Positions 1 through 22,019 of a DNA stretch of 64,000 bases are shown piece by piece; position 1 is the stretch's first letter; each line of letters opens with the position of its first letter. Position numbers and translations under genes: made by a program. This stretch comes from Citromicrobium bathyomarinum (lineage in GTDB: Bacteria > Pseudomonadota > Alphaproteobacteria > Sphingomonadales > Sphingomonadaceae). The stretch is taken from contig NZ_JAINWL010000002.1 in NCBI RefSeq assembly GCF_021021475.1, positions 434,001-498,000 of the forward strand, in the 5' to 3' direction. The notes under the pieces are model-generated. The model was given only the letters and a program-made list of their open reading frames with translations. It did no database searches and had not been told where the DNA came from.

Positions 1-21
1 GTAAAGAAAGGCATTCGAGCC

Positions 22-3244: not shown

Positions 3245-3307
3245 GTCGCGCTGCCAATCTGTTCGAAAAAGGGGTGCTGCAGCCGGCCTGCAAGCCGGTC
3301 TCTCCCC

Positions 3308-3313
3308 TATAAT
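3308..3313 (+). promoter_or_regulatory. Candidate -10 element (TATAAT)
   Basis: A perfect TATAAT lies 26 bases before the ATG of the small membrane protein at 3339, preceded by a C-rich run. No good -35 box is visible 16-18 bases upstream. The same arrangement occurs before flbT (9979-9984). Confidence 0.35.
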
Positions 3314-3338
3314 AGAGGATATCCCGACCGGAGCGGAC

Positions 3339-3578
3339 ATGAGCTACGACCAAAAACCCAGCCGCATCAAGCTTGTCAGCACTGGCGGGTCGGCGCGCGC
3401 GCCTCAAAATGCGCCCACCGACACACAGCCGCTGCAGCAGGCAATCGAAGAAGCACAGCGGCCCGAGGTCGAAGTCGCGCCCGCTCGCCGCTTCTCGATC
3501 CTGTCCGCAATTCTGTTCCTCGCCGGTTGCGCCGTTGGTGGCGCGGGTCTCGTCGCCTGGCCGCATCTGGTCGGCTGA
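3339..3578 (+). CDS. Small single-pass membrane protein
   Basis: A 79-residue protein from the ATG at 3339, with GGAG seven bases upstream. The soluble N-terminal part is polar (about residues 1-50). A C-terminal hydrophobic segment (about 54-76, ILSAILFLAGCAVGGAGLVAW) ends three residues before the stop, giving a tail-anchored topology. It diverges from the FliL-like minus-strand gene and precedes the exported TPR protein by 7 bases. No family recognised; the context suggests motility. Confidence 0.6.
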   Translation: MSYDQKPSRIKLVSTGGSARAPQNAPTDTQPLQQAIEEAQRPEVEVAPARRFSILSAILFLAGCAVGGAGLVAWPHLVG

Positions 3579-3585
3579 CACATTC

Positions 3586-5454: not shown

Positions 5455-5458
5455 CTAG

Positions 5459-5498
5459 CGCGCGGGGGCGGCATGGCTTGCCATGCATCCCCCGCGCG
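5459..5498. terminator. Large hairpin between convergent genes (probable bidirectional terminator)
   Basis: A perfect 10-bp outer stem (CGCGCGGGGG at 5459-5468 with CCCCCGCGCG at 5489-5498) encloses a perfect 7-bp inner stem (GCATGGC/GCCATGC) with a 2-base loop. It lies between the ends of the TPR gene and flgL. No U-run follows on either strand, so it may be Rho-assisted or simply protect both mRNA ends. Confidence 0.55.
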
Positions 5499-5515
5499 TA
5501 GTCGCTGGCCTTTGG

Positions 5516-6421: not shown

Positions 6422-6432
6422 TGGATGTCCTT

Positions 6433-8529
6433 TCAGCGGACCATATCGAGGAGAGTGTCGTACATTTGGGTGGCGGTCGTCATGACGCGCGCGGCGGCGG
6501 AATAGCTGTTCTGGAGGACCACCATCTGCGAGAGTTCCTCGTCCAGATTGACGCCGGAGAAGCTGTCGCGCCGGTTGATCGCGTCGTCGCGCCGCGCAGC
6601 GGCATCCACCAGCATGTCCTGCGCGCGCGCGGCCTGGGTTCCGGCGCGGCCCATCAGCAGGCTGGAGAAACGCTCGATCGTCGCCGACCCGGCCTTGCCG
6701 AAGTCGATCGGCTTACCCAGCGCTTCGACAAGGGCACCGGCAACCCGCGTGTCGCCACCGCCCAGCGCAGGCTCACCAACGGCGGCATCCGTCCGCAGGC
6801 GGGAGAGCGGCAGCCGGTCGCCGCTGGCCAGCACGTCGCTTCGCACGCCTGCTTTGTTCAGCCCGCTGGCACCGCCGGTCAGCCCGGAGAGCGCGGTAAA
6901 GGATACGCCGGTGCCGAAGCGGTCGGTCGAATCCGTGGGGATGGAAAGCAGTGAACCGCTGGCCCCCGGGCTGGGCGTAAAGGATATGCGGCCCCGGTCA
7001 TCCAGCGCAAAACTGCCGAACTTTGCCAGCGGGCTCTGCCCCAGCTCGGTGACCAGATCGCCCATGGTGGGGCCGACCGTGCCGGTAAGCGTCGTGGTCG
7101 CGAGAGAGCGGCCGGTGGCATCGCGCAGCACCAGCTGCGCGGACTGTCCGGCGCCGAACCCGTGCGGATCGCTGGCGACGAAACCCGGCGCGACGAGCGT
7201 TGCGGACTCGCTACGGACCACGTCGTTGAGGCCGAAATAATGCGAGAAGCCGTTACCCGCGCGCGCGCTTGGCGGATCGCCCTGCGCCACCGCGACCCCA
7301 TTGCTGCCGCTTGTGGCGACGAAGGACAGGCGCCCGTCCTGCAGGGCAACGGTGGCATTGCCTGCCAGACCACCATTGATCGCGGCGATGGCATCGTCGA
7401 CGGTAGCCAGTGGCCCCAGTGCGTCGAAATCGACCGTGGTGCTCGCGACGAGAATGCCGCTCTTGTCGGTTACCGCGAAGGTTGCCTGTCCGGTGAACCC
7501 CAGGCGGTCGCCGCCAATCAGCCCGGTAGGTCGGCCGTCAAGCCGGTTGGGAGGCGGGACCGCGGTGCCCGAGTTGGACACCGAATTGAGGGTTTCGGCA
7601 AGCCCGCCGAACAGCGAACCAAGCTGGTCGGAGAATTCCGGCAAGGCACGATCGCGCAGGTCGAGCAGGCCGCCAAGCTTGCCGCCAATGGCAGAAGAAT
7701 CGAGCTTCTCGCCCGTCGCAGTGGTCGGCTCACCCGCCTCGTTGGTGAAACGGATATCGATCACCGGGTAGGTCGGCTGCGCAACCCCGTCGCCGGGGCT
7801 GGGGTACGACAATTTCCGAAGTCGCCCGTCGAGCAGAACTGCACCAGTGGCGGAATCGATATTGACCCGCCCATCGGGCTGCTCACGGATGGATACCTTC
7901 ATCAGTCCGCTCAATTCCTCGAGCGCGGACATGCGCTGATCCTCGGCCCCGCCGGCGCTGCGGCCAAGACCGCGAAGCTGCGCAACAGTAGCGTTCAGGC
8001 CATGGATCCGTTCGAGCAGGTCGTTGACCGTTTCAATCGAGTAGCCGACTTCCGATTCAACATCGCCACGCAGCACCTGGATATCGTCGTCGAGCTGGCG
8101 GATGGAGCCGATGGCATCCTGCACCTCGGCGACGAAGCTCGCCGCGTTCTGCGGCGCGCTTCGTCCGCTCGTCAGCGCGATCGCCGATGCACTGATCGCG
8201 TCGAGCCGCGCGGGCACGCCGCTTTCGGCCCCCGGTGCGCCCAGGAATGCCTGCAAGCGATCCATGTAGTTCGCGGTCACCTCTGCGCGGCCCATGTCGC
8301 CCGCGCGAAGATATACCGTCTGCTCCAGAAAGCGGTCGGCGATCCGGGTGGGCTCGCCGATCACGACCCCGTTGATACGGCCCTGGGTCACACCCGTAGA
8401 GAGGGATACGCGCTCGCGCGCGTATCCCGGCGTACTGATGTTGGCGATGTTGTTGGATACCGATTTGATGCCGGCCTGCGACGCCGACAGGCCGGACACC
8501 GCCGTTCCCAGGATATTGCTCAGCGACAT
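6433..8529 (-). CDS. flgK: Flagellar hook-associated protein FlgK (HAP1)
   Basis: FlgK of 698 residues. The N-terminal rod motif reads SGLSASQAGIKSVSNNIANI with a downstream GYARE element, and the C-terminal D0 helix contains LVVLQ-type packing before AARVMTTATQMYDTLLDMVR. The central region is variable and Gly/Ala/Ser-rich, making this FlgK longer than the roughly 550 residues of enteric forms. It lies between flgE and flgL on the same strand. Confidence 0.93.
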   Translation of the reverse strand: MSLSNILGTAVSGLSASQAGIKSVSNNIANISTPGYARERVSLSTGVTQGRINGVVIGEPTRIADRFLEQTVYLRAGDMGRAEVTANYMDRLQAFLGAPGAESGVPARLDAISASAIALTSGRSAPQNAASFVAEVQDAIGSIRQLDDDIQVLRGDVESEVGYSIETVNDLLERIHGLNATVAQLRGLGRSAGGAEDQRMSALEELSGLMKVSIREQPDGRVNIDSATGAVLLDGRLRKLSYPSPGDGVAQPTYPVIDIRFTNEAGEPTTATGEKLDSSAIGGKLGGLLDLRDRALPEFSDQLGSLFGGLAETLNSVSNSGTAVPPPNRLDGRPTGLIGGDRLGFTGQATFAVTDKSGILVASTTVDFDALGPLATVDDAIAAINGGLAGNATVALQDGRLSFVATSGSNGVAVAQGDPPSARAGNGFSHYFGLNDVVRSESATLVAPGFVASDPHGFGAGQSAQLVLRDATGRSLATTTLTGTVGPTMGDLVTELGQSPLAKFGSFALDDRGRISFTPSPGASGSLLSIPTDSTDRFGTGVSFTALSGLTGGASGLNKAGVRSDVLASGDRLPLSRLRTDAAVGEPALGGGDTRVAGALVEALGKPIDFGKAGSATIERFSSLLMGRAGTQAARAQDMLVDAAARRDDAINRRDSFSGVNLDEELSQMVVLQNSYSAAARVMTTATQMYDTLLDMVR

Positions 8530-8555
8530 TAATCAGTTCCTCGCCCGACCAGGCT

Positions 8556-9854
8556 CTAGCGCTTGAGCGCGCTGACTTCCTGGAGCATGTCGTCGACCGT
8601 GGTGATGATCTTGGACGATGCGCTGTAGGCCCGCTGGAAGCGGATCATGTTGGTGAATTCCTGCGCCAGATCGACGTTGGATGCTTCCAGGGTGCCGGCC
8701 GAAATCGTGCCGCCGCCCAGCTCTCCCGGGCGCCCGATGGCGACATTGCCCGACTGCTGAGAGACAGTGTAGGCATTGCCCGGCAGGCGCGAGAGACCGT
8801 CCGGATTGGCGAAGGTCGCCATCGGCAGCTGGAACACCGGACGCGAGGTGCCATCGTCGAAGACGGCGCTGACGATACCGTCCTTGCTGACTTCCACCGA
8901 GACGAGATTGTTAAGCATGCCGCCGTCGGTGCTGGATGCGATCAGCGCCGAGCTGCTGCCGAACTGGGTCAGACCGTCGAGCCCGTCCTGACTGCCAAGG
9001 TTGAGGTTGATCGGAGAGGAGCCGGCCTGGTTGGCCCAGGAGACGTTGAGCGTTCCGAACAGGGCAGGCGAGGAGTTGGCGAGATCGAGGCTGCCGTCGG
9101 GGTTGAAGGCGACGTTGCCGCTGGCCAGCAGGCCGTTGGCCGCGGTCACATCGGCGGGGTCGCCATAGATCTCTGAAACCCACTGGTTGGGGCCGGTCTT
9201 GACGAAACCCATCGTTACCTGATGGCCGCCACCCTGTGCATCGAAAATTTCGAAGGTGCGAGAGAAATGCGGCTCCAGAGCGCCGGTCGCCATATCGCCT
9301 GCGGCATAGGCACCGGTGAACGGCTCCTGCGTCGATTGCAGGTTGATGCGAGCGGTCAGGCGGGTGGTGGCCGTGGCGGTGCCGGTCAGCCCGCTCAGTC
9401 GGACAGGTTCCAGCTCGCTCACGCCGCCGGTGCTGGTGTAGCCGCCGGTCGTGTCCAGCCGCCAGCCCTGCAGGAAATAGCCACCAGTATTGCGCAGATA
9501 GCCCTGCTCGTCCGGGCGGAAAGCCCCGGCGCGGGTGAATGCGATGCCGCTATCGGCGCCGCTGCCCGTGCGGGTGACGAAGAAACCGCCCCCGTCGATG
9601 CCCAGATCGGTCTGGCTGGAGGCTGCCTGGAGGAGCCCCTGCTTGGAAATCATCGCGCGGGGTGCCGCCGCAACGCCGCCAGCCGAATAGCTGCTCTTCA
9701 GGCGTCCGTCCGTGACGAGAGTGCGAAAGTCCGCCTCTGCGCCTTTGTATCCCACGGTGTTGATGTTGGTGATGTTGTCGGCAACCGTCGCCATCGCGCT
9801 CGATTGGGCACCGAGGCCGGACACACCGGCGTACAGGGCAGAATATAGGCTCAC
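8556..9854 (-). CDS. flgE: Flagellar hook protein FlgE
   Basis: FlgE of 432 residues, the hook subunit. The N-terminus has the rod/hook signature GLGAQSSAMATVADNITNIN followed by TVGYKG. The middle has GGGFFV and the hook domains, and the C-terminus ends EFTNMIRFQRAYSASSKIIT followed by a final TVDDML element. Translation probably starts at the GTG at 9854, with AGGAG ten bases upstream. It is the first gene of the minus-strand flgE-flgK-flgL set and diverges from flbT. Confidence 0.92.
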   Translation of the reverse strand: MSLYSALYAGVSGLGAQSSAMATVADNITNINTVGYKGAEADFRTLVTDGRLKSSYSAGGVAAAPRAMISKQGLLQAASSQTDLGIDGGGFFVTRTGSGADSGIAFTRAGAFRPDEQGYLRNTGGYFLQGWRLDTTGGYTSTGGVSELEPVRLSGLTGTATATTRLTARINLQSTQEPFTGAYAAGDMATGALEPHFSRTFEIFDAQGGGHQVTMGFVKTGPNQWVSEIYGDPADVTAANGLLASGNVAFNPDGSLDLANSSPALFGTLNVSWANQAGSSPINLNLGSQDGLDGLTQFGSSSALIASSTDGGMLNNLVSVEVSKDGIVSAVFDDGTSRPVFQLPMATFANPDGLSRLPGNAYTVSQQSGNVAIGRPGELGGGTISAGTLEASNVDLAQEFTNMIRFQRAYSASSKIITTVDDMLQEVSALKR

Positions 9855-9978
9855 TGAATTGCAACTCCTGCTTGGCGGGCACGCGCCCGGTCACAAGAGC
9901 ATTGTAGGAGAGCGGCATAGGCAAACCCAAAAGCAGGCAATTTTTTCCGACCCGGCCCCGGCACCACTCGCACCCCTC

Positions 9979-9984
9979 TATAAT
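9979..9984 (+). promoter_or_regulatory. Candidate -10 element (TATAAT) before flbT
   Basis: A perfect TATAAT lies 27 bases before the flbT ATG, after a run of C residues, as before the small gene at 3339. A recognisable -35 box is missing, so an activator or an alternative sigma factor could be needed. Confidence 0.35.
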
Positions 9985-10011
9985 GGTCCCATCAATCAGA
10001 AGGGACATGCG

Positions 10012-10443
10012 ATGCTCCATATTACTCTTCGCGAAGGCGAAAAGGTCGTCATCAACGGTGCGGTGCTGCGCTCGACCGGTCGCGCAGAGATCGTCGTCGA
10101 AAACGCTGCGGCAATCCTGCGCGGGCGCGACGTCATGTCGCCCGCAGAAGCGAACACTCCGGCGCGCCGGCTCTATTTCGCGTGCATGATGGCTTATCTC
10201 GATCCGGCCAACCTGACCCAGTATCAGGGCCGCATCCTTTCGCTGTTCGAGGATCTCGTCGAAGCGGTGGAAGCACCCGAAGCAAAGGCGCACTGCGTGT
10301 CGTTCGCGCGCAGCGTCGCCTATTGCGATTTCTATCGCGCGCTCAACGATTGCCGCGCCCTGATCGCCTACGAAACCCAGGCGCTGGCCCGTTTCGCCCC
10401 GGTCGAAGAGGCCGAAACCGTCCAAGCGGCCAACGCGGCCTGA
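10012..10443 (+). CDS. flbT: Flagellin synthesis post-transcriptional regulator FlbT
   Basis: FlbT of 143 residues. In Caulobacter FlbT binds the 5' leader of flagellin mRNA and couples flagellin synthesis to hook assembly. The start MLHITLREGEKVVINGAVLR and the ARRLYFACMMAYLD block match the family. The ATG at 10012 is preceded by AGAAGGGA; the longer open frame upstream is rejected because family homology starts here. The usual partner flaF is not seen in the window. fliI follows after 10 bases. Confidence 0.9.
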   Translation: MLHITLREGEKVVINGAVLRSTGRAEIVVENAAAILRGRDVMSPAEANTPARRLYFACMMAYLDPANLTQYQGRILSLFEDLVEAVEAPEAKAHCVSFARSVAYCDFYRALNDCRALIAYETQALARFAPVEEAETVQAANAA

Positions 10444-10453
10444 TCCTTTCGCC

Positions 10454-11782
10454 ATGCAGACGCTGGCATCCGCCGCGCGGGCAATCCGCGCGTTTCCGCC
10501 CGATCGGCACTTCGGCTCCGTCGCCGCCGTACGCGGCGCGCTGATCGAGGTCGAAGGGTTGGTCGGCTCCGCCCGCATCGGGTCGCGCATAGCGATCGAG
10601 TGCGAGGGCGGGACCGTGGATGCAGAGATCACCGGGCTCGACCGGCAGACCGCGCATTGCCTGTCGTTCAACGATCCGCACGGGATTGCCACTGGGACCC
10701 GCGTTGACCTGATGCCAGGGCAGTCGATGCTGCGACCGACCGACCAGTGGCTGGGCCGCGTGGTCGACGGGCTTGGTCGCCCGATGGACGACAAGGGACC
10801 GCTTCCTGTCGGCCCTGAAGCGCGCCTGTTCAAGGCCGACCCGCCGGCAGCTGCCAACCGCACCCGCGTGGGGCGCAGGCTTGAAACGGGAGTGCGCTCG
10901 CTCGACCTGTTCGCGCCGCTTTGCCGGGGGCAGCGGCTGGGACTGTTTGCGGGCTCGGGCGTCGGCAAGTCGACCCTGCTGTCGATGCTGGCGCGCTGGG
11001 TCGAAACCGACATCGCGGTGATCGGCCTGATCGGCGAGCGTGGCCGCGAAGTTCAGGAATTCATCGAGGACGATCTGGGGCCGGAAGGCTTGGCGCGCAG
11101 CGTCGTTGTCGTCGCGACCTCCGATTCACCGGCCCTCATGCGCCGTCAGGCGGCGTGGACCACCCTCGCCATCGCCGAGCACTTCCGTGATGCGGGCCGC
11201 GACGTGATGTGCCTGATGGATTCGGTCACCCGCTTCGCCATGGCGCAGCGCGAGATCGGCCTTGCCAATGGCGAGCCCCCGGCGACCAAGGGATATACGC
11301 CCACCGTTTTCGCCGAACTTCCGCGCCTGCTCGAACGCGCGGGGCCCGGCGGTCCCGGTCAGGGATCGATCACCGGTCTGTTCAGCGTGCTGGTCGACGG
11401 CGACGATCACGACGAACCGATCGCCGATGCGGTGCGCGGCATTCTGGATGGTCACATCGTCATGTCGCGCAAGATTGCCGAGCGTGGTCGCTTCCCCGCC
11501 ATCGACATCCTCAAATCGGTCTCGCGCATGCTGCCCGACTGCCACGCGGAGGAAGAAAACCGGCTGCGCCTCGCGGCGCTGCGGCACCTGTCCAATTATG
11601 CCGACATGGAAGAGCTCGTCCGGCTGGGTGCCTACAAGTCCGGCTCGGATGCAGAGGTGGACGAAGCAATCCGCCTCGCGCCGGCGATCGAGGACCTGCT
11701 GAAGCAGCGCAAGGACGATCGCGGATCGCTGGCCCACAGCTTCGCCCGGCTCGCCGAACTGATGACGGAGACTTCGCAGTGA
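10454..11782 (+). CDS. fliI: Flagellum-specific export ATPase FliI
   Basis: FliI of 442 residues, the ATPase of the flagellar type III export gate. The P-loop is GLFAGSGVGKSTLLSMLA and the Walker B region reads DVMCLMDSVTRFAMAQRE, with the T3SS-type motifs GLANGEPPATKGYTP and SITGLFSVLVDGDDHDEPI after it. The stop overlaps the GTG start of fliJ. Confidence 0.95.
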   Translation: MQTLASAARAIRAFPPDRHFGSVAAVRGALIEVEGLVGSARIGSRIAIECEGGTVDAEITGLDRQTAHCLSFNDPHGIATGTRVDLMPGQSMLRPTDQWLGRVVDGLGRPMDDKGPLPVGPEARLFKADPPAAANRTRVGRRLETGVRSLDLFAPLCRGQRLGLFAGSGVGKSTLLSMLARWVETDIAVIGLIGERGREVQEFIEDDLGPEGLARSVVVVATSDSPALMRRQAAWTTLAIAEHFRDAGRDVMCLMDSVTRFAMAQREIGLANGEPPATKGYTPTVFAELPRLLERAGPGGPGQGSITGLFSVLVDGDDHDEPIADAVRGILDGHIVMSRKIAERGRFPAIDILKSVSRMLPDCHAEEENRLRLAALRHLSNYADMEELVRLGAYKSGSDAEVDEAIRLAPAIEDLLKQRKDDRGSLAHSFARLAELMTETSQ

Positions 11783-12231
11783 AGACGCCCTTCGACACCG
11801 TCCTGCGCATGCGGCGGCGGGAAATCGACCGCACCCGCATCGCCATTCACATGGAAACCACGCGGCTCACGGAGATCGATCAGCAGAGCCGCGCGCTGGA
11901 GGAAGAGCTGGCGCGCGAGTACGAGGTCTGCGCGCAGAGCTGGGCCTCGTCTGCCGAGGCATTTGTCCGGCGCAGGATGGCGCAGCAGGCGGACCTGGTG
12001 GCGCAGCGCGTCGCCGTATCGGAGGAAATCGGCCGCCTGCGGCGCGAGGCGGTCGACGCCTATGGTTCGCAGCACGTGCTGGAAAACGCCGCCGAGGCGT
12101 TTCGAGACGACCATCGGCGGCAGCAATCGCGGGCCGAGCAGCGCGAAACGGACGATCTGTGCGCGGCGCGCGTGGTTCCCGCCACGCGCACACGGACCAA
12201 GCCTACCATTCCGCAGCTTACGGCCCGGTGA
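11779..12231 (+). CDS. fliJ: Flagellar export chaperone FliJ
   Basis: A 150-residue, highly charged, almost wholly helical coiled-coil protein starting at the GTG that overlaps the fliI stop (GTGA). It follows fliI exactly as FliJ does and has the FliJ length and composition. FliJ forms the central stalk of the export ATPase and escorts substrates. The C-terminal 20 residues are basic and Thr-rich. Sequence similarity within this family is low, so the call rests on position and architecture. Confidence 0.82.
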   Translation: MKTPFDTVLRMRRREIDRTRIAIHMETTRLTEIDQQSRALEEELAREYEVCAQSWASSAEAFVRRRMAQQADLVAQRVAVSEEIGRLRREAVDAYGSQHVLENAAEAFRDDHRRQQSRAEQRETDDLCAARVVPATRTRTKPTIPQLTAR

Positions 12232-12237
12232 CGTGCG

Positions 12238-13314
12238 ATGCAGCAGGTAGGACTCGAATCGCTCTCCCCGCAGGACCGGGCACGCGTCATCTATACGCAG
12301 GCCCGTTCCGAGATGACCGACCGCCTGTGGCAGGCGGCCATCGGCAGTGCGCAAGACGATAAGTCAGGCGCGCAGGGGCCGTGTCGCCACGGTCCCATGG
12401 GGCTCCCGATGGGGATGATGGACCTGTTCGGCACCGGTCAGGATGCCAGCGCGCTGGCGATGGCCTTCGAAGCCATGCAAGGAGCCGGTGCGAAGCCGGG
12501 GATCGGGATCGACTCCATTCGACCCCCGGTGGCCAAGCCCGAGATTAGCATCGAACCGATCGTTCCGGCGGTGACCAAGCCGGGCCTCGGTTTCGATGCG
12601 CCGTCGCCCTACAGCCCCGTCATCAAAGAGAGTTCCGCCAGCGGCCCACTGGGCAGCCTGGGGGCCAATTCCGGCTACGCGGCGACCTTGCAGAGGGCTG
12701 CCGAGCGTAGCGGACTGCCCGCGACCACGCTTGCCGCGATCGTCGATGCAGAGGCGGCCAAACGCCCGGATGGCAGCTGGAATCTGATGTCGCGCAATCC
12801 GCGTTCGAGCGCGGCGGGGCTGGGCCAGTTCCTTTCCGGCACATGGATCGGCATGGCCCAGAAGCCCGGCACCTGGCTGTATGACGTGGCACGGCAGAAG
12901 GGGTGGCTGACCGAGAGCGGCCGCGTCGCTCCCGCGGCGCGCGGATCGCTACTCGCGCTGCGTTACGATGCGACGGCGTCGATCAACAGCATCGCCGATT
13001 ATGCCACATCCAATATCGCGACCATTCGCAGGTCGGGCGTCAGGACTGGAGACGATCCGCAGGCGCTCGCCCGGATTGCCTATCTCGGCCACCATCTGGG
13101 GCCGGGAGACGCGATCCGCTACCTTAAGGGCGGATTGGCGGAGGGTCGGGCCACCGTTTTACTGAAGGCGCAGATCGGATCGGCATCGGCGCGCGAGCGG
13201 ATCGCCCGTACCGGCGATGCCGCGCAGGCGCACCGTGACTGGCTCAACGGCTACATCGCCCGCAAGATCAGGCCGGATCGGTTTGCCGCCCTGCCGCAGG
13301 CGGCCAGCAGCTGA
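12238..13314 (+). CDS. Lytic transglycosylase-like protein of the flagellar cluster
   Basis: Protein of 358 residues. Residues 1-40 are helical. Residues about 75-125 contain a three-fold imperfect repeat (KPGIGID, KPEISIE, KPGLGFD). From about residue 140 there is a lysozyme-like SLT domain with the candidate catalytic Glu in AAIVDAEAAKRPDGSWN and the core motif SSAAGLGQFLSGTW. No signal peptide is apparent, so it may leave through the flagellar export system, as FlgJ does. It would act on peptidoglycan during rod assembly. The gene follows fliJ by 6 bases. Confidence 0.78.
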   Translation: MQQVGLESLSPQDRARVIYTQARSEMTDRLWQAAIGSAQDDKSGAQGPCRHGPMGLPMGMMDLFGTGQDASALAMAFEAMQGAGAKPGIGIDSIRPPVAKPEISIEPIVPAVTKPGLGFDAPSPYSPVIKESSASGPLGSLGANSGYAATLQRAAERSGLPATTLAAIVDAEAAKRPDGSWNLMSRNPRSSAAGLGQFLSGTWIGMAQKPGTWLYDVARQKGWLTESGRVAPAARGSLLALRYDATASINSIADYATSNIATIRRSGVRTGDDPQALARIAYLGHHLGPGDAIRYLKGGLAEGRATVLLKAQIGSASARERIARTGDAAQAHRDWLNGYIARKIRPDRFAALPQAASS

Positions 13315-13456
13315 TCCAGACAGACAGACAGACGGACTGCCGACAACCCGCAGGATGCCTGACTTTCCGGGGAAATCTGCCGACCCCGGTGGCCTGCGAT
13401 GCGCCCCGAGGCGGGGCTCCGAAACCGTCCGGGCATGACCGTAGTGGCCCTTCCGT

Positions 13457-13610
13457 AAAAGTACTGAAGCCAAGTTCGGTATGGTTCCTTAAAGGAGAAA
13501 ACCGGAACCTCCAAGAAAGAGGTCGTTTATAGGCTGCCTACTATCCCTTGATCGTCACAAGACAGCATTTGACGTAAGGGGAGCTTACTCATGTCGAAAA
13601 GTACTGAAGC
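13457..13610 (+). repeat. 14-bp direct repeat flanking the sigma factor start
   Basis: The 14-mer AAAAGTACTGAAGC occurs at 13457-13470 in the leader and again at 13597-13610 inside codons 3-7 of the sigma factor gene, exactly 140 bases apart. The surrounding bases differ. The 13315-13590 leader also holds a GACA tandem run (GACAGACAGACAGACGG near 13318) and no other gene. Confidence 0.6.
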
Positions 13611-14643
13611 ACTGGAAGTCGCGGTAGCAGAAGTTATCGCCAACATGAATTCGGACGGATCGCGTGGGTCCGCTCGTCAGCGCGCAAATATCGATCGCGC
13701 TTTTATCAGAATTCTCAAGATCGCAGCGCCGCGTATTCGGCACTTCATTCGCCAATACGGCCTGGCTGCTCATTATGAAGACGCCGAGCAGGTCTGTGCG
13801 ATTGCAGTCCACCGCGCGATCGAGGCCTATGACCCGACCAAGGCCAAGTTCACCACCTTCCTCAACTGGCAGATCCGTGGCGAACTGCAGAGCCTGCGCT
13901 TCCGCCTGATGACCGATCAGCGGCCGTCCGCCCGCAAGGTGGAAGCGGTGACTATCGCTCTCACCACCGGGTCTATCAGCGACGATGGCGAAGAAACCAG
14001 CCTCGAAGCGCTGATCGAAGACGAAGCGGCGCTGGAGCGGACCGAGAGCTCCGCCTCGGAACATCTCGCCAATCAGGCCTGCATCGCGCTGGTCGACGCC
14101 TATATCGAAGCCGAGCGCAAGACAGGCGTCGAACAGTTGCGCAAGCGCGCCCGGACCCGTCGACCCGCCCGTGACATCCGCGAATCCCGCCCCGATCTTC
14201 CGGCGAGTTTTCGTGCCCACATGGCAGGCCCCGACCCGGTCGAGCTGGAAAAGCTGCACGAACGGCTGGAGCGCGATCGTGCGATTATCGAGCGCAGCAT
14301 GTTCTCCGGCGATACCAAGCTGGCGCTCAGCATCGATAACAGCCTGACCCGTGAACGGATCCGCCAGATCGTGCGCCGCGCTGGCAAGCACATGGCGCAA
14401 CTGGTGCAGACCGATCCCCGCTTCGCGATGCTGGCAGAGCAGGCCGGGGTCGCGATCGAACCGGCGACGGCGACACGCCCGGCAACTCCTGCGGCACCTG
14501 TCGGCATGCTGCCGTCCATGAACCAGCCGCACAATCAGACGATCACCGTTTCTGTTCCGGCGGAGCCCGCTGCGGATCGGCGTGCGGTGCGCGGTCCTTC
14601 GGTCACTCCGGTGCGGCACCAGTCGGGTGGGCTGTCTGCCTGA
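13591..14643 (+). CDS. Divergent sigma-70-family RNA polymerase sigma factor
   Basis: Protein of 350 residues. Residues about 33-110 match sigma region 2: the HYEDAEQVCAIAVHRAIEAY element is followed by FTTFLNWQIRGELQSLRF. Residues about 227-270 form a region 4 helix-turn-helix (SLTRERIRQIVRRAGKHM). About 120 residues of acidic and then basic sequence separate the two, and no RpoH box or FliA-type region 3 is evident. A Pro/Ala-rich tail follows. It ends the flagellar block, so control of motility genes is a reasonable inference. A weak AAGGGGAG ribosome binding site precedes the ATG. Confidence 0.75.
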   Translation: MSKSTEALEVAVAEVIANMNSDGSRGSARQRANIDRAFIRILKIAAPRIRHFIRQYGLAAHYEDAEQVCAIAVHRAIEAYDPTKAKFTTFLNWQIRGELQSLRFRLMTDQRPSARKVEAVTIALTTGSISDDGEETSLEALIEDEAALERTESSASEHLANQACIALVDAYIEAERKTGVEQLRKRARTRRPARDIRESRPDLPASFRAHMAGPDPVELEKLHERLERDRAIIERSMFSGDTKLALSIDNSLTRERIRQIVRRAGKHMAQLVQTDPRFAMLAEQAGVAIEPATATRPATPAAPVGMLPSMNQPHNQTITVSVPAEPAADRRAVRGPSVTPVRHQSGGLSA

Positions 14644-14986: not shown

Positions 14987-15253
14987 TCAGCGCCTGCCAC
15001 CGCGGCTGCGCGCACCGGCGGGCCCTTGCCCGGGTGTGCGCTCGCGGAAGACGATCCGGCCTTTGCTCAGATCGTAGGGCGTCATTTCGACATGTACGCG
15101 GTCTCCAACGACCGATCGGATACGATAGCGACGCATCTTGCCAGCAGTGTAGCAGATGATGCGGTGCTCATTATCGAGGGTGACGCCGAAACGTCCGTCA
15201 GGCAGGATCTCGTCGATCGCGCCTTCCATCGTGATGAGCTCTTCTTTCGCCAA
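14987..15253 (-). CDS. infA: Translation initiation factor IF-1 (TTG start)
   Basis: IF-1 binds the ribosomal A site during initiation. The S1/OB-fold sequence is complete, from [19 protein letters not shown] through [20 protein letters not shown] to [15 protein letters not shown], with an extra Gly/Arg-rich tail of about 15 residues. Homologues start just before AKEE, which here is a TTG at 15253 with AAGGA seven bases upstream. The in-frame ATG at 15304 would add 17 unlikely residues and lacks a comparable ribosome binding site. The product is 88 residues from TTG. Confidence 0.9.
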
Positions 15254-15534
15254 ACCATAGTCCTTAGCGTACGTAAAATCATCCGTGCGGACGTATTCCG
15301 TCACGGAGCCGTGGTGTGTGAAAAGGAATTGGTGCCGAACTTGCGCTCAGGCGCGTATCTCGGCGGTAACAATCCGTCGCAAACGACGTCAGGCAAGATC
15401 AATATAGCAGTAAGTGAAAAAATTACAATGGCGCTGGATTGGCTTTTGCATTTGAGCGGCTGCCAGCAATATTTTTTCTGGCCTGGGGGCGGGCGGCCTC
15501 TTCAGCAACGCGGGTTTTGATCGAAGCTCGCTTC

Positions 15535-15676: not shown

Positions 15677-16119
15677 CAGGATCATCCGGCGCACCTGCCG
15701 GTACCACGGAAAAACAGGAAGGCAAGGTAATAAAGGCGGTATGTATAAGTAGGAGTTGACTGAAGGATAGGGTGAATCGCCTCGCATATTGGCAGGAAAT
15801 TCGTTCGGTCTTATGCTGCGCGGCAAGACTTCTTTTTTTCGGCGTTCCCCCCGTTTTCCGAGGTCTCGCTCGAGCAGACCAGCGTCACTTGACCCCTGCG
15901 CGCGCCGGGCGCGACCGCTACGGCGCAGCTTGACGAATCCGCCGCCATATCTACTGGTGCGCGCGGGATTTTTCGCCGACGGCCTGATGCAAGCTGGATG
16001 ATCGCAGCGGGCAGGCGAGGGGGGAAGCGAGTGCTTTGCGTTGATCTCCCATCCTCCCTCCACCGGTCCGGCCCATCCGGGCTGGCGAGGCGCGCCGGGG
16101 TTCGAAAAGGCTGCTGACA
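15677..16119. other. Intergenic region between the divergent small protein and MBOAT genes
   Basis: About 440 bases with no convincing gene. It includes an AT-richer patch (about 15725-15795) that could hold the minus-strand promoter, and a GC-rich leader before the MBOAT gene. Open frames across it (such as minus 16063-15389) have atypical composition and look like chance. Confidence 0.4.
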
Positions 16120-17694
16120 GTGCTGTTTACTGACCCGGCCTACCTCTTCCTGTTCCTGCCGATAGTCGCCTTCGTGTGCGCAGGCGTACGCTCGCGCTTC
16201 GGGGTCGAGTGGGCGCTCGCGTTCCTGTTCATCGCCTCTTGCGCATTCTACGTCGGCTGGGGCGTCGACTATCTGATCATGATGCTGGCGAGCATCCTGG
16301 TGAACTGGGCCGCCTCGCAGTCGCTGATCCATCTGGGCGACGACAGAAGCGGGATGCGAAGGGCGATCTTCTGGGCTGGCATCGCGTTCAATTTCGGTGC
16401 GCTGATCTGGTTCAAATACTCGTTCTTCTTCCTGAATTACGCGGAAAGCTCGGCCGCCTTCAACGCCGGGCTGGTGGCGATTCCGGTCGGCATTTCCTTC
16501 TACACCTTCCAGCAGGCGGTCTTCCTGCTCGACGCGTATCGGCGCGACCGCGAGGTGATCGACTATCTGGGGACGGAGCGGGGCGCGCGCGGACGGGCGC
16601 GCGGCTTCGTGCGCTACGCCGCCTTCATCGCCTTCTTTCCCCAACTGGTGATCGGCCCGATCGTCTATCTGAAGGAATTCGCGCCGCAGGTCCGCAGCGC
16701 CGATTTCGGGCGGCTGGTGCGCATCAATATCGAAGTCGGCCTGTTTCTGATCATCGTCGGCCTGTTCAAGAAAGTCCTTATCGCGGACAATATCGCGCGC
16801 TATGTCGACCCTGTCTTCGACATGGTTGCGGCGGGCGGCGAACCCAATCTGATCGACGCGTGGACCGCTGCGCTTGGCTATTACGCGCAGCTCTATTTCG
16901 ACTTTTCGGGCTATAGCGACATGGCGCTCGGCTCGGCGCGCATCCTCGGCATTATCCTGCCGATCAACTTCGCCTCGCCGCTCAAAGCGAACTCGATCGG
17001 CGACTTCTATCGCCGCTGGCACATCACGCTGACCCGCGTGATCGCGCTTTTCATGTACACGCCGCTGTCGCTGTTCGGCGCGCGGTTCGCGGCGAGGCAT
17101 ATCAAGTGGAAGCCGCTCGCCCGGTTCCCGCTGATCTGGCTTCCGCTGCTGGTCAATTTCGAGGTGATCGCACTGTGGCACGGCGCGACGATGACCTTCG
17201 TGCTGTTCGGCCTGCTGCACGGGTTGTGGTACGTGCTGGAGACCGAGGCGAAGAAGACGTCGGCCTGGCGCACATGGAAATCACGCTCTAGCGAGACCGC
17301 GCGCAACATCATCGGCCGGGTCGCCTTCACCGTGCCGATGGTGCTGTGTTTCGCGCTGTTCCGGTCCGAAAGCGTCACCACTTGGAGCCATATGGTGGGC
17401 GCCATGTTCGGCCAGCAGGCGCTCCCCCTCGATCGGGTCGGCCTGCGCGACTTCGGCGAGCTGGCGCTGGTCTTCGCCATTCTCGGCTTCTGCTGGTTCC
17501 TGCCCAATGCCTACGAACTGGCGCGCGATCACAAGCCGGGGCTGTTCACCTGGACCTACCCGGCCAACCGCAACCTGCTGGCGCGGATCAAGTGGGCCCC
17601 CAACATAATCTGGGGCGGGATCATGGCGGGGGCCTTGCTCGCCACGCTCTATTACGTCAGCCGTCTTCCGCCGTTCATCTATCTGGGATTCTGA
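16120..17694 (+). CDS. MBOAT-family membrane-bound O-acyltransferase (AlgI/DltB-like)
   Basis: Multi-pass membrane protein of 524 residues with MBOAT features: an AlgI-like N-terminus (LFTDPAYLFLFLPIVAFV), a VGISFYTFQ block, the FFPQLVIGPIVYLKEF segment, the DFSGYSDMALGSA motif, and the invariant His of the ALWHGATMTF motif near residue 354. AlgI and DltB move acyl groups across or at the membrane onto exported polymers. It starts at GTG 16120 and is the first gene of a run with an SGNH-like protein, methyltransferase, ACP and FkbH, which points to an ACP-bound donor. Confidence 0.9.
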   Translation: MLFTDPAYLFLFLPIVAFVCAGVRSRFGVEWALAFLFIASCAFYVGWGVDYLIMMLASILVNWAASQSLIHLGDDRSGMRRAIFWAGIAFNFGALIWFKYSFFFLNYAESSAAFNAGLVAIPVGISFYTFQQAVFLLDAYRRDREVIDYLGTERGARGRARGFVRYAAFIAFFPQLVIGPIVYLKEFAPQVRSADFGRLVRINIEVGLFLIIVGLFKKVLIADNIARYVDPVFDMVAAGGEPNLIDAWTAALGYYAQLYFDFSGYSDMALGSARILGIILPINFASPLKANSIGDFYRRWHITLTRVIALFMYTPLSLFGARFAARHIKWKPLARFPLIWLPLLVNFEVIALWHGATMTFVLFGLLHGLWYVLETEAKKTSAWRTWKSRSSETARNIIGRVAFTVPMVLCFALFRSESVTTWSHMVGAMFGQQALPLDRVGLRDFGELALVFAILGFCWFLPNAYELARDHKPGLFTWTYPANRNLLARIKWAPNIIWGGIMAGALLATLYYVSRLPPFIYLGF

Positions 17695-17700
17695 GCGACC

Positions 17701-18864
17701 GTGACGAAGCCCGACGACAGCACGACCTCTCCCGCCGAACGCCAGCGCGGCGGCCGGCTCCTGCGCTCTCCCTTCATCCTCGCGATCCTGTCGGTGGTCG
17801 CGTTCTTCTGGGTGGTGACCGGGGCGGTGATCGCGATCGACCCGCTCGACCTCTACGACTGGGGTGAGCCGCCGCGTCTGCTGCCGGACTATAACCGCCA
17901 CACCAATCGCGAGATGTACATGGTCGCGGCGCGTACGGACGTGGACGTGCTGCTGCTCAGCAGCTCGACGCTCGCCGCGATCACCAGCGATGAGATGGAA
18001 AAGAGCTTCGGCGTCGAAAAGGCGTTCAACTTCGCGGTCTCCGGCCCACGCCCCGCAGACCGCCGTTTCCTGCTGCAGCAGGTGGCCGCCCATTCGCCCG
18101 CCGAGCGGGTGATCGTGAGCTTCGACTATCTCTTCGTGCTGCCGCCCGACTACGCATCGGATCTGTTGCCGACCTATCTGTACGACGACAATCCGCTCAA
18201 CGACCTCAGGATCGCATCGCCAAACGTGCTTCGGCTGACCATGCAGAAGCTGAAGGGAGAGCCGATCGGGCTACCTGGATGGGAGTATTCCACCGCGTTG
18301 GCGGCCGAACGGCAGGAATATGCGGCGTTCCAGCAGAAGCTGACAGAAGAGCGGGAGGACGACCGGCACCGGGCATCCGCCGCAGATATGGACAGCGCAT
18401 CGCAGGACTGCGCGGACTACCCGCTGGTCTCGCAGATCCTCCCGGAACTGGTCGACCGGATGACCGCGCGCGGCAAGACAGTCGATTTCGTGATCCCGCC
18501 CTATTCCCTGCGGCTTTATCGCAGCTGGCAGGATTATGGCGTCGCGGCGGAGGTTGCCATGGCCGAACCCTTTCTGTCAAAGCAGATCGCGATCCGCCGC
18601 TGCCTCGTCCGCGCCTTTGCCGGGCGTGACGATGTCAGGGTGTTCGCTTTCGACAACGAGACCTGGATTACCGGCGACCTGACCAATTATCGCGACGAGG
18701 CGCACGTACAGAACCCGGCCATCTACCGCTTTATTCTGAACAGCATGGCGCGGGGCCGCCATCGCCTGACGACCGGGAATTTCGAGAATTACGCAGCTAG
18801 GCTGACCCGCAATGTGGAGCAGGGCGCGGGCACAGAGATGAACCAGAAGGGGCCGACGACATGA
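17701..18864 (+). CDS. SGNH/DltD-like single-pass membrane protein
   Basis: Protein of 387 residues from GTG 17701. One N-terminal membrane segment (about residues 24-45) is followed by an extracytoplasmic SGNH-type domain. A Ser block (VLLLSSSTLAAI, near residue 87) stands where the nucleophile is found, an AVSGPRPADRRFLLQ stretch follows, and a C-terminal DEAH-type Asp-His pair (about residues 332-335) fits the catalytic dyad. This pairing with MBOAT recalls DltB-DltD and AlgI-AlgJ/AlgX. The stop overlaps the methyltransferase start. Family membership is inferred from architecture. Confidence 0.68.
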   Translation: MTKPDDSTTSPAERQRGGRLLRSPFILAILSVVAFFWVVTGAVIAIDPLDLYDWGEPPRLLPDYNRHTNREMYMVAARTDVDVLLLSSSTLAAITSDEMEKSFGVEKAFNFAVSGPRPADRRFLLQQVAAHSPAERVIVSFDYLFVLPPDYASDLLPTYLYDDNPLNDLRIASPNVLRLTMQKLKGEPIGLPGWEYSTALAAERQEYAAFQQKLTEEREDDRHRASAADMDSASQDCADYPLVSQILPELVDRMTARGKTVDFVIPPYSLRLYRSWQDYGVAAEVAMAEPFLSKQIAIRRCLVRAFAGRDDVRVFAFDNETWITGDLTNYRDEAHVQNPAIYRFILNSMARGRHRLTTGNFENYAARLTRNVEQGAGTEMNQKGPTT

Positions 18865-19775
18865 ACAGGCTGGAACAGCATTCGACCTTGTCGCGGCTTT
18901 ATGCGCTGCAGCTGGAGGTATTTCCCGAGCATGAGGATTTTCTCAGCCGCCGGATCGCGAACAGTTCCGACGAGCATCTCGTCGAACTGGAGCATCTGGC
19001 GCAGGTGATCGCGCGGATCGGCGAAGGCAAGCTGGAGACGATCGCGCGCGACTATGCGTGGCTGACAAACGAGATGCTGGAAGAGGAATACTACTTCCGG
19101 CGCCATGGCACCTATCGCCTCTCCACCTTCGAGGAGGCGGAGCGCACGGTCTACGCCAATGCGGAGTTTATGCAGAAATACATGAACGGCGTGCTGTTTT
19201 CCCACCTGTGGTGGGGCAATCACTCGCGCGTGATCATCCACTTCCATCGCGAATTCCTGTCCCGCATCAAACAGGGCGCGCATCATCTGGAAGTCGGGCC
19301 GGGCCACGGCCTGCTGCTGTATCTGGCCGCCAATTCGCCGCGCACCGGATCGGTGACCGGCTGGGATGTCAGCGCGACCAGCCTGCGCGATACGCGCCAC
19401 GCACTCGAGGCGATGGGTGTGCGGAAGCCGGTGACGCTGGAAGCGCACAACATCGTCGATGCGCCCTCGGGCAATTTCGACAGCCTGACCTTCTCCGAAG
19501 TGCTCGAACATCTGGAACAGCCGCGCGATGCGCTGAAGACGCTCCGCTCGCTGCTCAACGACGGGGGCAAGATCTTCGTCCACGCGCCGGTCAACTCGCC
19601 TGCGCCCGATCACATCTATCTGTTTCGCGAGCCGGAGGAGATCGTCGAGATGGTGCGGGATGCGGGCTTCGCGATCGACGAGACGGTGAATTTTCCCGGC
19701 ATGGATGCCTCGCTGGAGCGGGCGCGCAAGCTGAAGCTGACGATCTCGACCATCGTCGTCGGGACCGCGATCTAG
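18861..19775 (+). CDS. Class I SAM-dependent methyltransferase
   Basis: Protein of 304 residues. A helical N-terminal region (1-130) precedes a Rossmann methyltransferase domain with the SAM-binding loop HHLEVGPGHGLLLYLA, then SVTGWDVSATSL and the FSEVLEHLEQP motif. The substrate is unknown; in this operon it could methylate the FkbH-derived acyl group or the polymer acceptor. The start overlaps the previous stop (ATGA), and the ACP follows after 11 bases with an AAAGGG ribosome binding site. Confidence 0.82.
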   Translation: MNRLEQHSTLSRLYALQLEVFPEHEDFLSRRIANSSDEHLVELEHLAQVIARIGEGKLETIARDYAWLTNEMLEEEYYFRRHGTYRLSTFEEAERTVYANAEFMQKYMNGVLFSHLWWGNHSRVIIHFHREFLSRIKQGAHHLEVGPGHGLLLYLAANSPRTGSVTGWDVSATSLRDTRHALEAMGVRKPVTLEAHNIVDAPSGNFDSLTFSEVLEHLEQPRDALKTLRSLLNDGGKIFVHAPVNSPAPDHIYLFREPEEIVEMVRDAGFAIDETVNFPGMDASLERARKLKLTISTIVVGTAI

Positions 19776-19786
19776 AAAGGGTGCAG

Positions 19787-20032
19787 ATGACCAGGGAAGA
19801 CGTTTACGCAAAGCTCGAACCGATCTTTCGGGAGCTGTTCGATCAGTACGACGGGCCGATCACTGGCGAGCTGACGGCCAATGATGTCGAGCAGTGGGAC
19901 AGCCTCGGCCATGTGCAGCTGGTCGTCGCGCTGGAGCAGGAGTGCGGCGTGCGCTGCGCCCCACAGGAGGTCACCGGACTGCCCGATCTGGGCGCGCTGG
20001 TCGATCTCTTCGCCGCCAAGACCCAGGCCTGA
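19787..20032 (+). CDS. Acyl carrier protein
   Basis: An 81-residue acidic carrier protein with the phosphopantetheine site WDSLGHVQL (Ser near residue 39) and the four-helix pattern of ACPs. As a dedicated carrier between a methyltransferase and an FkbH protein, it probably holds the donor group loaded by FkbH, as DltC holds D-alanine. The ATG at 19787 has AGAAAGGG upstream. Confidence 0.88.
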   Translation: MTREDVYAKLEPIFRELFDQYDGPITGELTANDVEQWDSLGHVQLVVALEQECGVRCAPQEVTGLPDLGALVDLFAAKTQA

Positions 20033-20075
20033 GCCGCGCCGGGGCGGGCGCTGACGTGATGGCGGGCTGCTGAGA

Positions 20076-22019
20076 ATGGCGATGCTCGAATGGAAGCCTC
20101 CGCTGTCGCCGGAATGGGGCGAGTGGAAGTCCACCGCCGATGCGCTGCTGACCGAGGCGGAAAACCGCGCTGAGCTAAGTCCCGACGCGCAGCGGCCGCT
20201 GGCCGAGTGCCTTCACCGCATGGCCGGCGAAAAGCTGGGGCCCATGCAGCAGTTGCAACTGGAACGGCTTGCGCGCCGTGCGGTCCAGGCCGTGCCTCAG
20301 CTGGAGCCGTTTCGGTTTCTGAGGGTCGGGATCGTCTCCGATCGCACGCTCGATTTTCTGGCCCCCGCGCTCCAGGCAGCCGGGCTCGCGCGGCTTTTGC
20401 TGATCGAGCCGGTGCTGGCACCGCCGGGCAGCGCGGCATCGCTGGCGTTCGGCGCAGGCGACCCGTTCGGCGGACCGGTGGACATCGTGCTCTACTGGCA
20501 CGACGCCACGATGACCCACGCGCGTACCGCGCTGCTCGACGCGCAGGCGCAAGAGGCGGCGATTCATGCGAGCACGGCGGCGCTGCGACAGACGGTCGAA
20601 GCGCTGCAGACAAAGTGCCGCGCGGACGTGATGGTATCGACCACACCGCTGCCGCCTGCGCAGCGCGTGTCATCGATCGACGCAATCACGCCCGGCTCCA
20701 TGGCGGCGCATGTCGCACAAACCAACGCGGCGGTGTTCGAGGGCGCGGCACGGGGTGACTGGACAGTGATCGATATCGCCGCGCTCGCCGCCGATGTGGG
20801 GCACGCGGGCTGGTGCGATCCGATGCGGCTGTTCGATCTCAAAGTGCCCTTCGCGATGGAGCTCAATCCCGTGGTCGCGGACCATGTCGCGCGCCACCTG
20901 GCGGGGGCGTTCGGAAAGGCACGGCGCGCGCTGGTGCTCGATCTCGACAACACGCTGTGGAGTGGGGTGATCGGCGATGACGGGCTGGAGGGGATCGAAG
21001 TCGGGCAGGGCAGTGCGGCGGGCGAGGCCTACCTTGCGCTGCAGCAGCTCGCGCTGACCCTCAAGGATCGGGGCGTTGCGCTATGCGTGTGCTCCAAGAA
21101 CAACGACGAGACCGCACGCCAGCCTTTCGCACAGCATCCCGACATGCTGCTGCGGCTGGACGATTTCGCCGTGTTTCATGCCTCTTGGGACGACAAGGCA
21201 AGCGGCGTCAGGGCCATCGCGCAGGCGCTGCGGCTGGGGCCGGAATCGCTCGTCTTCATGGACGATAACCCGGCGGAACGCGCACGGGTGCGGCAGGAGC
21301 TGCCCTTCGTCTTCGTGCCCGAACTGCCCGAGCAGCCGTTCCGCTACGCCACGATCCTCGCCGCGTCGGGCGCATTCGAGCATGGGCCGCTCAGCGGCGA
21401 CGATCTCGCCCGCGCGCAGTCTTACGGCAGCGATGCGAAGCGGGTCGAAATGCAGGCGGCCATCGGCAATTACGAGGATTACCTGCGCGCGCTCCAGATG
21501 GAGATCTTCATCACCCCGTTCGACGATATAGGCCTGCCGCGCATCGCGCAGCTGGTGGCCAAGTCGAACCAGTTCAACCTGACGACGCGACGCCACGGAA
21601 AGGACGAACTCGCCCGAATGCAGGCATCAGGCGATGTGCTGTGCTGGCAGGTGCGCCTCAGCGACCGGTTTGCCGATCACGGCATGATCGCGGTCGTCAT
21701 CGTGGCCAGGCGCGGGGATGACTGGGTGATCGACACCTGGCTGCAATCCTGCCGGATATTGCAGCGCGGGGTGGAGCAGGAGATCGCCAACCGGCTGGTC
21801 GAGGCTGCGCGTCGCGAGGGCGCGGGCCGCGTGCTTGGCGAGTATATCTCGACCAGCAAGAACGCGCTGGTTGCCGATCTCTTCCCCCGACTGGGCTTCG
21901 CAGCCATCAACGCACCGGCATACGGCGACGAGGCAAGCGAATGGTTCGCCTGCGAGGTGGATGGCTTTACTGCGCATGCGACCTTCTTCGGGTCGCCGGA
22001 TGCAGGCCACCCGGCCTGA
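20076..22019 (+). CDS. FkbH-type HAD-superfamily (HAD-IIIC) acyl-loading protein
   Basis: Protein of 647 residues. The N-terminal third is the FkbH-associated domain. The HAD core begins with the FkbH signature ALVLDLDNTLWSGVIGDDG (first Asp near residue 289), with CVCSKNNDETA and VFMDDNPAERARV as motifs II-III. The C-terminal GNAT-like part has AKSNQFNLTTRRH and WLQSCRILQRGVE. FkbH proteins dephosphorylate 1,3-bisphosphoglycerate and load a glyceryl group onto an ACP. No dehydrogenases for methoxymalonate formation are nearby, so glyceryl or methylglyceryl may be the final donor. It is the last gene of the operon. Confidence 0.88.
   Translation: MAMLEWKPPLSPEWGEWKSTADALLTEAENRAELSPDAQRPLAECLHRMAGEKLGPMQQLQLERLARRAVQAVPQLEPFRFLRVGIVSDRTLDFLAPALQAAGLARLLLIEPVLAPPGSAASLAFGAGDPFGGPVDIVLYWHDATMTHARTALLDAQAQEAAIHASTAALRQTVEALQTKCRADVMVSTTPLPPAQRVSSIDAITPGSMAAHVAQTNAAVFEGAARGDWTVIDIAALAADVGHAGWCDPMRLFDLKVPFAMELNPVVADHVARHLAGAFGKARRALVLDLDNTLWSGVIGDDGLEGIEVGQGSAAGEAYLALQQLALTLKDRGVALCVCSKNNDETARQPFAQHPDMLLRLDDFAVFHASWDDKASGVRAIAQALRLGPESLVFMDDNPAERARVRQELPFVFVPELPEQPFRYATILAASGAFEHGPLSGDDLARAQSYGSDAKRVEMQAAIGNYEDYLRALQMEIFITPFDDIGLPRIAQLVAKSNQFNLTTRRHGKDELARMQASGDVLCWQVRLSDRFADHGMIAVVIVARRGDDWVIDTWLQSCRILQRGVEQEIANRLVEAARREGAGRVLGEYISTSKNALVADLFPRLGFAAINAPAYGDEASEWFACEVDGFTAHATFFGSPDAGHPA

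Follow-up and report, generated by a model that had tools for sequence, protein, structure and literature searches.

In a 64,000-nucleotide stretch of the Citromicrobium bathyomarinum genome (3.2 Mb; contig NZ_JAINWL010000002.1, positions 434,001 to 498,000, hereafter the window), five genes on the same strand encode a membrane-bound O-acyltransferase (MBOAT), an SGNH-type membrane protein, a methyltransferase, a stand-alone acyl carrier protein (ACP) and an FkbH-type protein. This operon probably specifies an MBOAT-SGNH acylation system fed by a carrier protein, working in the manner of Dlt systems with a different acid. The genes, and the features of the MBOAT on which this proposal draws, are as follows.

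16120-17694, + strand: MBOAT acyltransferase, 524 amino acids, GTG start
17020-17100, + strand: H301 and helix 302-327 of the MBOAT, putative counterpart of H289 and the DltC-docking helix HC of DltB, without PLGG
17179-17181, + strand: catalytic histidine H354 in W-H-G, invariant in MBOAT alignments
17674-17691, + strand: FIYLGF at the C-terminal tail of the MBOAT, an instance of the FXYXXF acyl-shuttle motif
17701-18864, + strand: SGNH membrane-anchored acyltransferase (candidate for the DltD/PatB role), 387 amino acids
18861-19775, + strand: class I S-adenosylmethionine-dependent methyltransferase, 304 amino acids, with an N-terminal extension of ~130 amino acids
19787-20032, + strand: stand-alone ACP, 81 amino acids
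20076-22019, + strand: FkbH-type HAD-IIIC protein, predicted glyceryl loader, 647 amino acids

The gaps between successive genes are 6, -4 (an ATGA overlap), 11 and 43 bases, and the GTG start of the MBOAT open reading frame (ORF) lies at the position where most relatives show M-L-F. The original prediction described five nearly gapless same-strand genes in the order MBOAT, SGNH, methyltransferase, ACP and FkbH; the ORFs and gaps agree with it, and the operon at 16120-22019 is confirmed. The unit is not a chance arrangement, because its FkbH protein is 94-97% identical within the genus and the whole unit is conserved in another genus. The closest named relative of this FkbH protein, at 95% identity, is that of Alteriqipengyuania abyssalis (Erythrobacteraceae).

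A close FkbH relative is present in 21 of 299 genomes of the taxonomic family. The five-gene order, which the original prediction had singled out for a search across genomes, recurs in three relatives within the genus (G543, G390 and G664) and in G399, which belongs to another genus. Proteins of G399 share 68% (MBOAT), 55% (SGNH), 74% (methyltransferase), 71% (ACP) and 63% (FkbH) identity with those of the window. DNA similarity between the two (~71%) spans positions 16116 to 21900 and is found in neither flank, so the five genes evidently move together as a unit. Profiles built from relatives and applied to the sequence around FkbH genes found FkbH, ACP, MBOAT and SGNH together at 17 of 20 loci in the taxonomic family; the other three have no MBOAT in the stretch examined, which for one is a 3.5 kb contig. 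An evenly drawn sample of 385 Alphaproteobacteria genomes yielded 40 FkbH loci whose flanks could be analysed. MBOATs are sparse in this class (124 of the 385 genomes), and yet one lies within ~10 kb of FkbH at 16 of the 40 loci, against an expectation of ~0.12, a rough figure that assumes ~190 MBOATs in total. An ACP is present at all 16 of these loci, compared with one of 40 MBOAT loci without FkbH (Fisher p 4e-13).

The cassette also occurs in records of Armatimonadetes, Verrucomicrobia, Nitrosomonadales (here without a detected SGNH gene) and Helicobacter. On pSymB of Sinorhizobium meliloti (near 631 kb in strain 2011) the order is MBOAT, SGNH, ACP and FkbH, with no methyltransferase, and the cassette adjoins rkp capsule-export genes; the corresponding proteins are 43, 30, 48 and 46% identical to those of the window. 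Our statements on neighbouring genes are confined to annotated records or Pfam matches, and greedy ORF picking is unreliable in high-GC loci. The SGNH partner in S. meliloti (L118, 2386-3615; L119, 10415-11644) is annotated as a TonB-dependent receptor, a name that is probably wrong. The FkbH frame of S. meliloti strain 1021 (L122, 9767-11874) is split into two overlapping pieces, and is single in strain 2011 and most others.

In Dlt systems, the carrier DltC delivers D-alanine to DltB; a tyrosine of the microprotein DltX, within its FXYXXF motif, then receives it before it reaches DltD. MBOAT-SGNH pairs other than Dlt have FXYXXF fused to the MBOAT C-terminus and take their acyl group from acyl-CoA (PMC12148441). 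The MBOAT of the window scores 64.9 bits with the Pfam MBOAT profile PF03062 and 119.6 bits with the NCBIfam DltB profile TIGR04091, below the curated cut-off of 375 bits for the latter. It matches the DltB structures 8jem and 6bug in a phmmer search (1.2e-16). Its AlphaFold model (mean predicted local distance difference test, pLDDT, 87) has DltB as its closest PDB match (Z 27.6, root-mean-square deviation 3.3 over 384 residues), followed by human MBOATs (Z 22.4).

Tyr521 and Phe524 of the MBOAT tail are invariant among 34 aligned MBOATs, and an FXYXXF tail is present in the complete fused MBOATs linked to FkbH. The tail is absent from six FkbH-linked MBOATs (L016, L018, L021, L078, L083 and L089). 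At three of these loci (L016, L078 and L089), a separate DltX-like ORF of ~36-49 amino acids with a single predicted helix lies inside the cassette, overlaps or abuts the adjacent genes, and ends in FFVYQNF, FFVYQNF or FIYQGF. These ORFs are unlikely to be there by chance, because the same filter for microproteins was passed by only five ORFs in 2.03 Mb of sequence. The presence of such a microprotein beside tail-less MBOATs argues that the shuttle is kept, whether fused or separate. No separate DltX microprotein is present in the window, whose MBOAT carries the motif itself. At L090 (19398-19571), a short ORF with one helix and the ending APFIYTIF is also DltX-like, and lies outside any MBOAT cassette that we found.

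A second feature of the MBOAT suggests how it could recognize a carrier. In DltB, the docking site for DltC is helix HC (M302, V305, I306, M309 and K312, with R317 near by), which is flanked in the sequence by the active-site histidines His289 and His336 (PMC11035591). In the window, 53 residues without an LGG motif separate H301 from H354, and helix 302-327 of the model spans the putative dock. FkbH-linked MBOATs mostly have 47-60 residues between the matching histidines and no LGG motif, whereas in MBOATs without FkbH these residues are 40 apart and enclose a P-L-G-G(-N-R) segment. PLGG is missing in 39 of 40 FkbH-linked MBOATs and in none of 46 controls; one control first scored as lacking it reads P-I-G-G, and thus all 46 have a GG segment. 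Some of the larger counts between histidines in this first measurement arose from a search pattern that caught an earlier residue. A uniform measurement made afterwards gives segments of 37-55 in FkbH-linked MBOATs, except for L089 (33), and of 35 in all controls. Among the sequences used for a tree, the FkbH type of segment occurs in 36 of 37 FkbH-linked MBOATs and in none of 44 controls. When the segment is masked, FkbH-linked MBOATs fall into several lineages of this tree, and a topology uniting them in one clade is rejected (p-AU 0.002), although long branches make parts of the tree uncertain. The segment tracks FkbH in all five independent pairs (p 0.0625, the minimum attainable with five pairs). 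By analogy with known acetyl-CoA systems, PLGG may be a mark of CoA use.

These observations bear on whether the operon could be an ordinary MBOAT-SGNH system for O-acetylation from acetyl-CoA, with FkbH, ACP and methyltransferase as unrelated neighbours. Such an arrangement would accord with the description of FXYXXF-tailed pairs other than Dlt as acyl-CoA users (PMC12148441). We consider it very improbable, given that an ACP stands beside the MBOAT almost exclusively where FkbH is present, that the five-gene unit travels whole, and that the PLGG segment of other MBOATs is missing. The original prediction had named identity with a described acetyl-CoA system as a result that would speak against it; instead, this MBOAT differs from other bacterial MBOATs at the docking segment.

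For the SGNH protein, neither Pfam nor NCBIfam gives a match. In an alignment of 31 such proteins, only the columns of Ser89 and His335 are invariant. The model (pLDDT 77) has a helix resembling a transmembrane segment at residues 24-46, followed by the SGNH domain. The top Foldseek matches are DltD structures (E 3.7e-4). However, generic SGNH esterases score marginally higher in VIA-align (Z 12.2) than PatB (11.4) and DltD (10.7), and therefore the fold alone does not single out DltD. A class-wide search with this protein alone returned only weak matches, which were informative only within an iterative profile.

The ACP scores 22.0 bits with PF00550 (cut-off 20.8). Its phosphopantetheine site is Ser39 (codon 19901-19903) within W-D-S-L, and WDS is invariant in 29 aligned ACPs. 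The FkbH protein scores 272 bits with TIGR01686 (cut-off 146.65) and matches PDB entry 3slr over residues 228-438; D289, D291, T293, S340, K374, D396, D397 and C559 are invariant in 41 aligned proteins. The methyltransferase matches PF13489/PF08242 (Methyltransf_23/12/11), and is optional in the wider family.

The likeliest cargo is glyceryl, which would be O-methylated on the carrier. The FkbH reactions characterised or proposed in the literature consulted are glyceryl loading (PMC7489565, PMC13122637), and all FkbH active-site residues of the window's protein, including C559, match those of relatives from diverse clusters. An alternative is that the same machinery transfers lactyl, phosphoglyceryl or another hydroxy acid loaded by FkbH. 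This is unlikely, yet it draws some support from the identification of FkbH by family and from a Helicobacter cynogastricus locus (L027, 6171-13475) that encodes FkbH, ACP, two MaoC dehydratases, a short-chain dehydrogenase/reductase (SDR), an MBOAT and two SGNH proteins. Because the dehydratases and SDR are inserted between ACP and MBOAT, the carrier-bound acid in this species is probably further processed. Other contexts of FkbH were also seen. A VOC-family gene lies beside the ACP-FkbH cassette in three records (L120, 11909-12337; L165, 9124-9591; L119, 7997-8464), and FkbH proteins of more than 800 amino acids occur beside SDR genes with no MBOAT in two others (L168, 5615-8074; L170, 5552-8065). 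One of the latter also has pseB and a gene of the N-acetylneuraminate synthase family, and the two records together represent a third, glycan-linked context for FkbH.

The methyltransferase might instead act on the acceptor sugar, or after transfer. The core evidently works without this enzyme, since it is absent from S. meliloti and most relatives in the family, and its substrate is unreadable from the sequence. We view late methylation as a minority possibility: the gene sits between SGNH and ACP within the unit, it has relatives in about ten other FkbH clusters (L016, L062, L066, L078, L089, L092, L097, L109, L110 and L165), and the proposals for suomilide methylate glycerate while it is bound to the carrier (PMC13122637).

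Polyketide and tetronate clusters are the best-known setting of FkbH, which appears in such contexts in Methylosinus, Pseudalkalibacillus and Streptomyces records; suomilide clusters even unite FkbH, an O-methyltransferase and an MBOAT (PMC13122637). FkbH, ACP and methyltransferase could thus make a methoxymalonyl or other small-molecule unit, and the MBOAT could acylate a secreted natural product. There is little chance of this, because neither the operon nor its neighbours encode dehydrogenases, a ketosynthase or a nonribosomal peptide synthetase (NRPS), and the combination of an SGNH partner with a shuttle tail suggests a polymer outside the cytoplasm as the target. A methoxymalonyl-ACP or tetronate pathway was considered and rejected, as no pair of dehydrogenases, KASIII-type synthase or polyketide synthase (PKS) lies near the operon. 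The original prediction had likewise reported no dehydrogenases or polyketide genes here, and had counted their constant presence in homologous operons as contrary evidence; the annotated cassettes of S. meliloti and SC52 have none.

From the genes present, their repeated linkage, the conservation of catalytic residues and motifs, and the predicted folds, we infer a route for the acyl group. FkbH would take glyceryl from 1,3-bisphosphoglycerate and load it on the phosphopantetheine of Ser39 of the ACP, and the methyltransferase would probably O-methylate it while it is carrier-bound. The ACP would dock on the cytoplasmic helix that follows H301 of the MBOAT, which, using H354, could transfer the acyl group to Tyr521 in its FIYLGF tail, at the periplasmic face. 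The SGNH protein, anchored in the membrane, would then accept the group from the tail on Ser89 and might esterify a periplasmic or lipid-linked glycan.

Several observations weigh against this interpretation. DltB is the nearest fold partly by default, because the match list holds no AlgI or PatA structure. The short MBOATs of L018, L021 and L083 have neither the tail nor a detected separate DltX-like microprotein, the FkbH-linked MBOAT of L089 has PLGG nonetheless, and that of L027 has a short segment (42). SGNH profile matches are found at just 6-7 of the 16 class loci with MBOAT and FkbH, versus 23 of 40 controls; together with the ACP counts, these numbers indicate that an SGNH gene is common to both kinds of MBOAT and an ACP is not. 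Glu40, the salt-bridge residue of DltC, is not conserved in FkbH-linked ACPs. FkbH proteins could load related acids. No acceptor is linked to the operon itself, and our literature searches found no chemical structure for the product of any relative.

The Dlt-like reading of the core is nonetheless well supported. Like Dlt, the operon combines a dedicated loader, a stand-alone carrier, an MBOAT, a shuttle tyrosine in FXYXXF and an SGNH protein, with a carrier-docking segment between two active-site histidines and closest folds in DltB and, by Foldseek, DltD. Unlike Dlt, the loader is FkbH and not an adenylating ligase, the shuttle is fused to the MBOAT, a methyltransferase is added, and the host is Gram-negative (a sphingomonad, by its relatives), in which one would not expect the acceptor to be teichoic acid, the polymer that Dlt systems D-alanylate. 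No protein of the genome exceeds the DltA cut-off of TIGR01734 (559.85 bits; the best, on another contig, reaches 158), and none in the operon does. Because DltA and a separate DltX are missing and the MBOAT falls short of the DltB threshold, the operon works like Dlt without being a member of the Dlt family. It belongs to the MBOAT-SGNH kind, with a donor that would be carrier-fed. The PatA/PatB and AlgI/AlgJ/AlgX O-acetyltransferases share with it an MBOAT with C-terminal FXYXXF and an SGNH partner with Ser and His, but they are described as using acyl-CoA with no carrier (PMC12148441), whereas here ACP and FkbH are present and a longer segment replaces PLGG. The FkbH loaders of tetronate, methoxymalonyl-ACP and aeruginosin/suomilide pathways similarly pair a TIGR01686 protein with a carrier, in several cases with an O-methyltransferase, but dehydrogenases, ketosynthase and NRPS or PKS are absent here and the product is apparently exported by MBOAT and SGNH. 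The original prediction equated FkbH with DltA, the ACP with DltC, the MBOAT with DltB and the SGNH protein with DltD. These roles are strongly supported by linkage with controls, catalytic residues, the shuttle tyrosine, the docking segment and the predicted folds; the counterpart of DltX, which here forms the C-terminal tail of the MBOAT, had been overlooked, and the suggested flagellar acceptor has lost ground.

The neighbours include flagellar genes, infA, DUF2891, DUF979, DUF969 and hydantoinase genes. The DUF2891 gene is next downstream, is convergent and ends 5 bases from the operon. Two features lie on the flagellar side.

13591-14643: sigma factor gene, after the flagellar cluster and the last gene on its side before infA
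14987-15304, - strand: infA paralogue (IF-1), between the operon and the flagellar-side genes

The operon had been said to adjoin flagellar genes, but infA, on the opposite strand, separates it from the sigma factor gene. This infA is a second copy; the other IF-1 copy in genomes of the genus is only ~56% identical, and the second IF-1 is kept in G482, a member of the genus without the operon and without a matching flagellar FliI. The flagellar set at positions 1-14643 has a FliI that is 96-100% identical where present, in four of seven genomes of the genus examined. It may be a second flagellar system, because a different FliI-like protein (39-41%) occurs in all seven.

The acceptor might be the flagellin glycan of this neighbouring system. 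The operon and the nearby FliI co-occur in all four genomes of the genus that have either. In Campylobacter jejuni, the flagellin glycan bears di-O-methylglycerate (PMC3068675), as di-O-methylglyceroyl pseudaminate, and cj1302, a gene with an FkbH domain, lies in the glycosylation locus (PMC7099621). However, the modification in C. jejuni is an amide reported at the stage of the CMP-sugar (PMC3068675), and not an exported ester, so MBOAT and SGNH would not be needed for it. Moreover, infA lies between the two clusters, no NeuB was found in the window's genome, and several relatives of the cassette have capsule or Wzy genes as neighbours. In G399 and G608 the cassette is present and flagellar FliI is not; the FliI matches in these two genomes are only as strong as matches seen in every genome, which we ascribe from their scores to F1-ATPase subunits and Rho. 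The flagellin acceptor is accordingly improbable. Searches with FliI and DUF979 spoke against an obligate flagellar link, and flagella are unlikely to be required, because the genus of G399 has the operon without flagellar FliI.

A polysaccharide is a more plausible acceptor. Wzy-type genes lie near the cassettes of L062 and L070, glycosyltransferases and a sulfotransferase surround that of SC52, and the window's genome has genes for three Wzy-family proteins at other locations. Gellan, a polymer made by Sphingomonas, bears L-glycerate esters (PMC9104527), and thus glycerate or methylated glycerate is found on surface glycans both in a sphingomonad and on C. jejuni flagellin. Genes for the gellan glyceryl transferase were not found described in the searched literature.

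Among the matches listed in our literature searches, which did not extend to subscription papers and patents, no description of an envelope FkbH-MBOAT system was found. FkbH together with MBOAT led only to aeruginosin and suomilide, FkbH with glyceryl and O-antigen gave nothing, and of the matches for FkbH and polysaccharide, only the C. jejuni work concerns glycans. The system thus appears to be a carrier-fed form of MBOAT-SGNH envelope acylation that is absent from this literature. Beyond the window, we lean somewhat towards a wider proposition: that a carrier branch of MBOAT-SGNH systems, widespread in Gram-negative bacteria and fed by FkbH-loaded ACPs, arose repeatedly by assembly around MBOATs of different lineages, with a Dlt-like docking helix replacing PLGG every time, that it esterifies surface polysaccharides with glycerate or O-methylglycerate, and that the dock separates carrier-fed from CoA-fed MBOATs by sequence alone.

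The docking segment would offer a sequence rule for carrier-fed MBOATs that is testable in S. meliloti, a plant symbiont and a tractable species. The genes of the cassette are also candidates for the origin of glycerate on polymers of bacteria; one example is gellan gum, a commercial product of sphingomonads that bears glyceryl groups. A 2025 study of the MBOAT-SGNH mechanism states that pathways other than Dlt have no carrier protein (PMC12148441). The FkbH-ACP-MBOAT family appears to break this rule in several phyla, and would therefore add a new class of acyl donor to cell-envelope modification.

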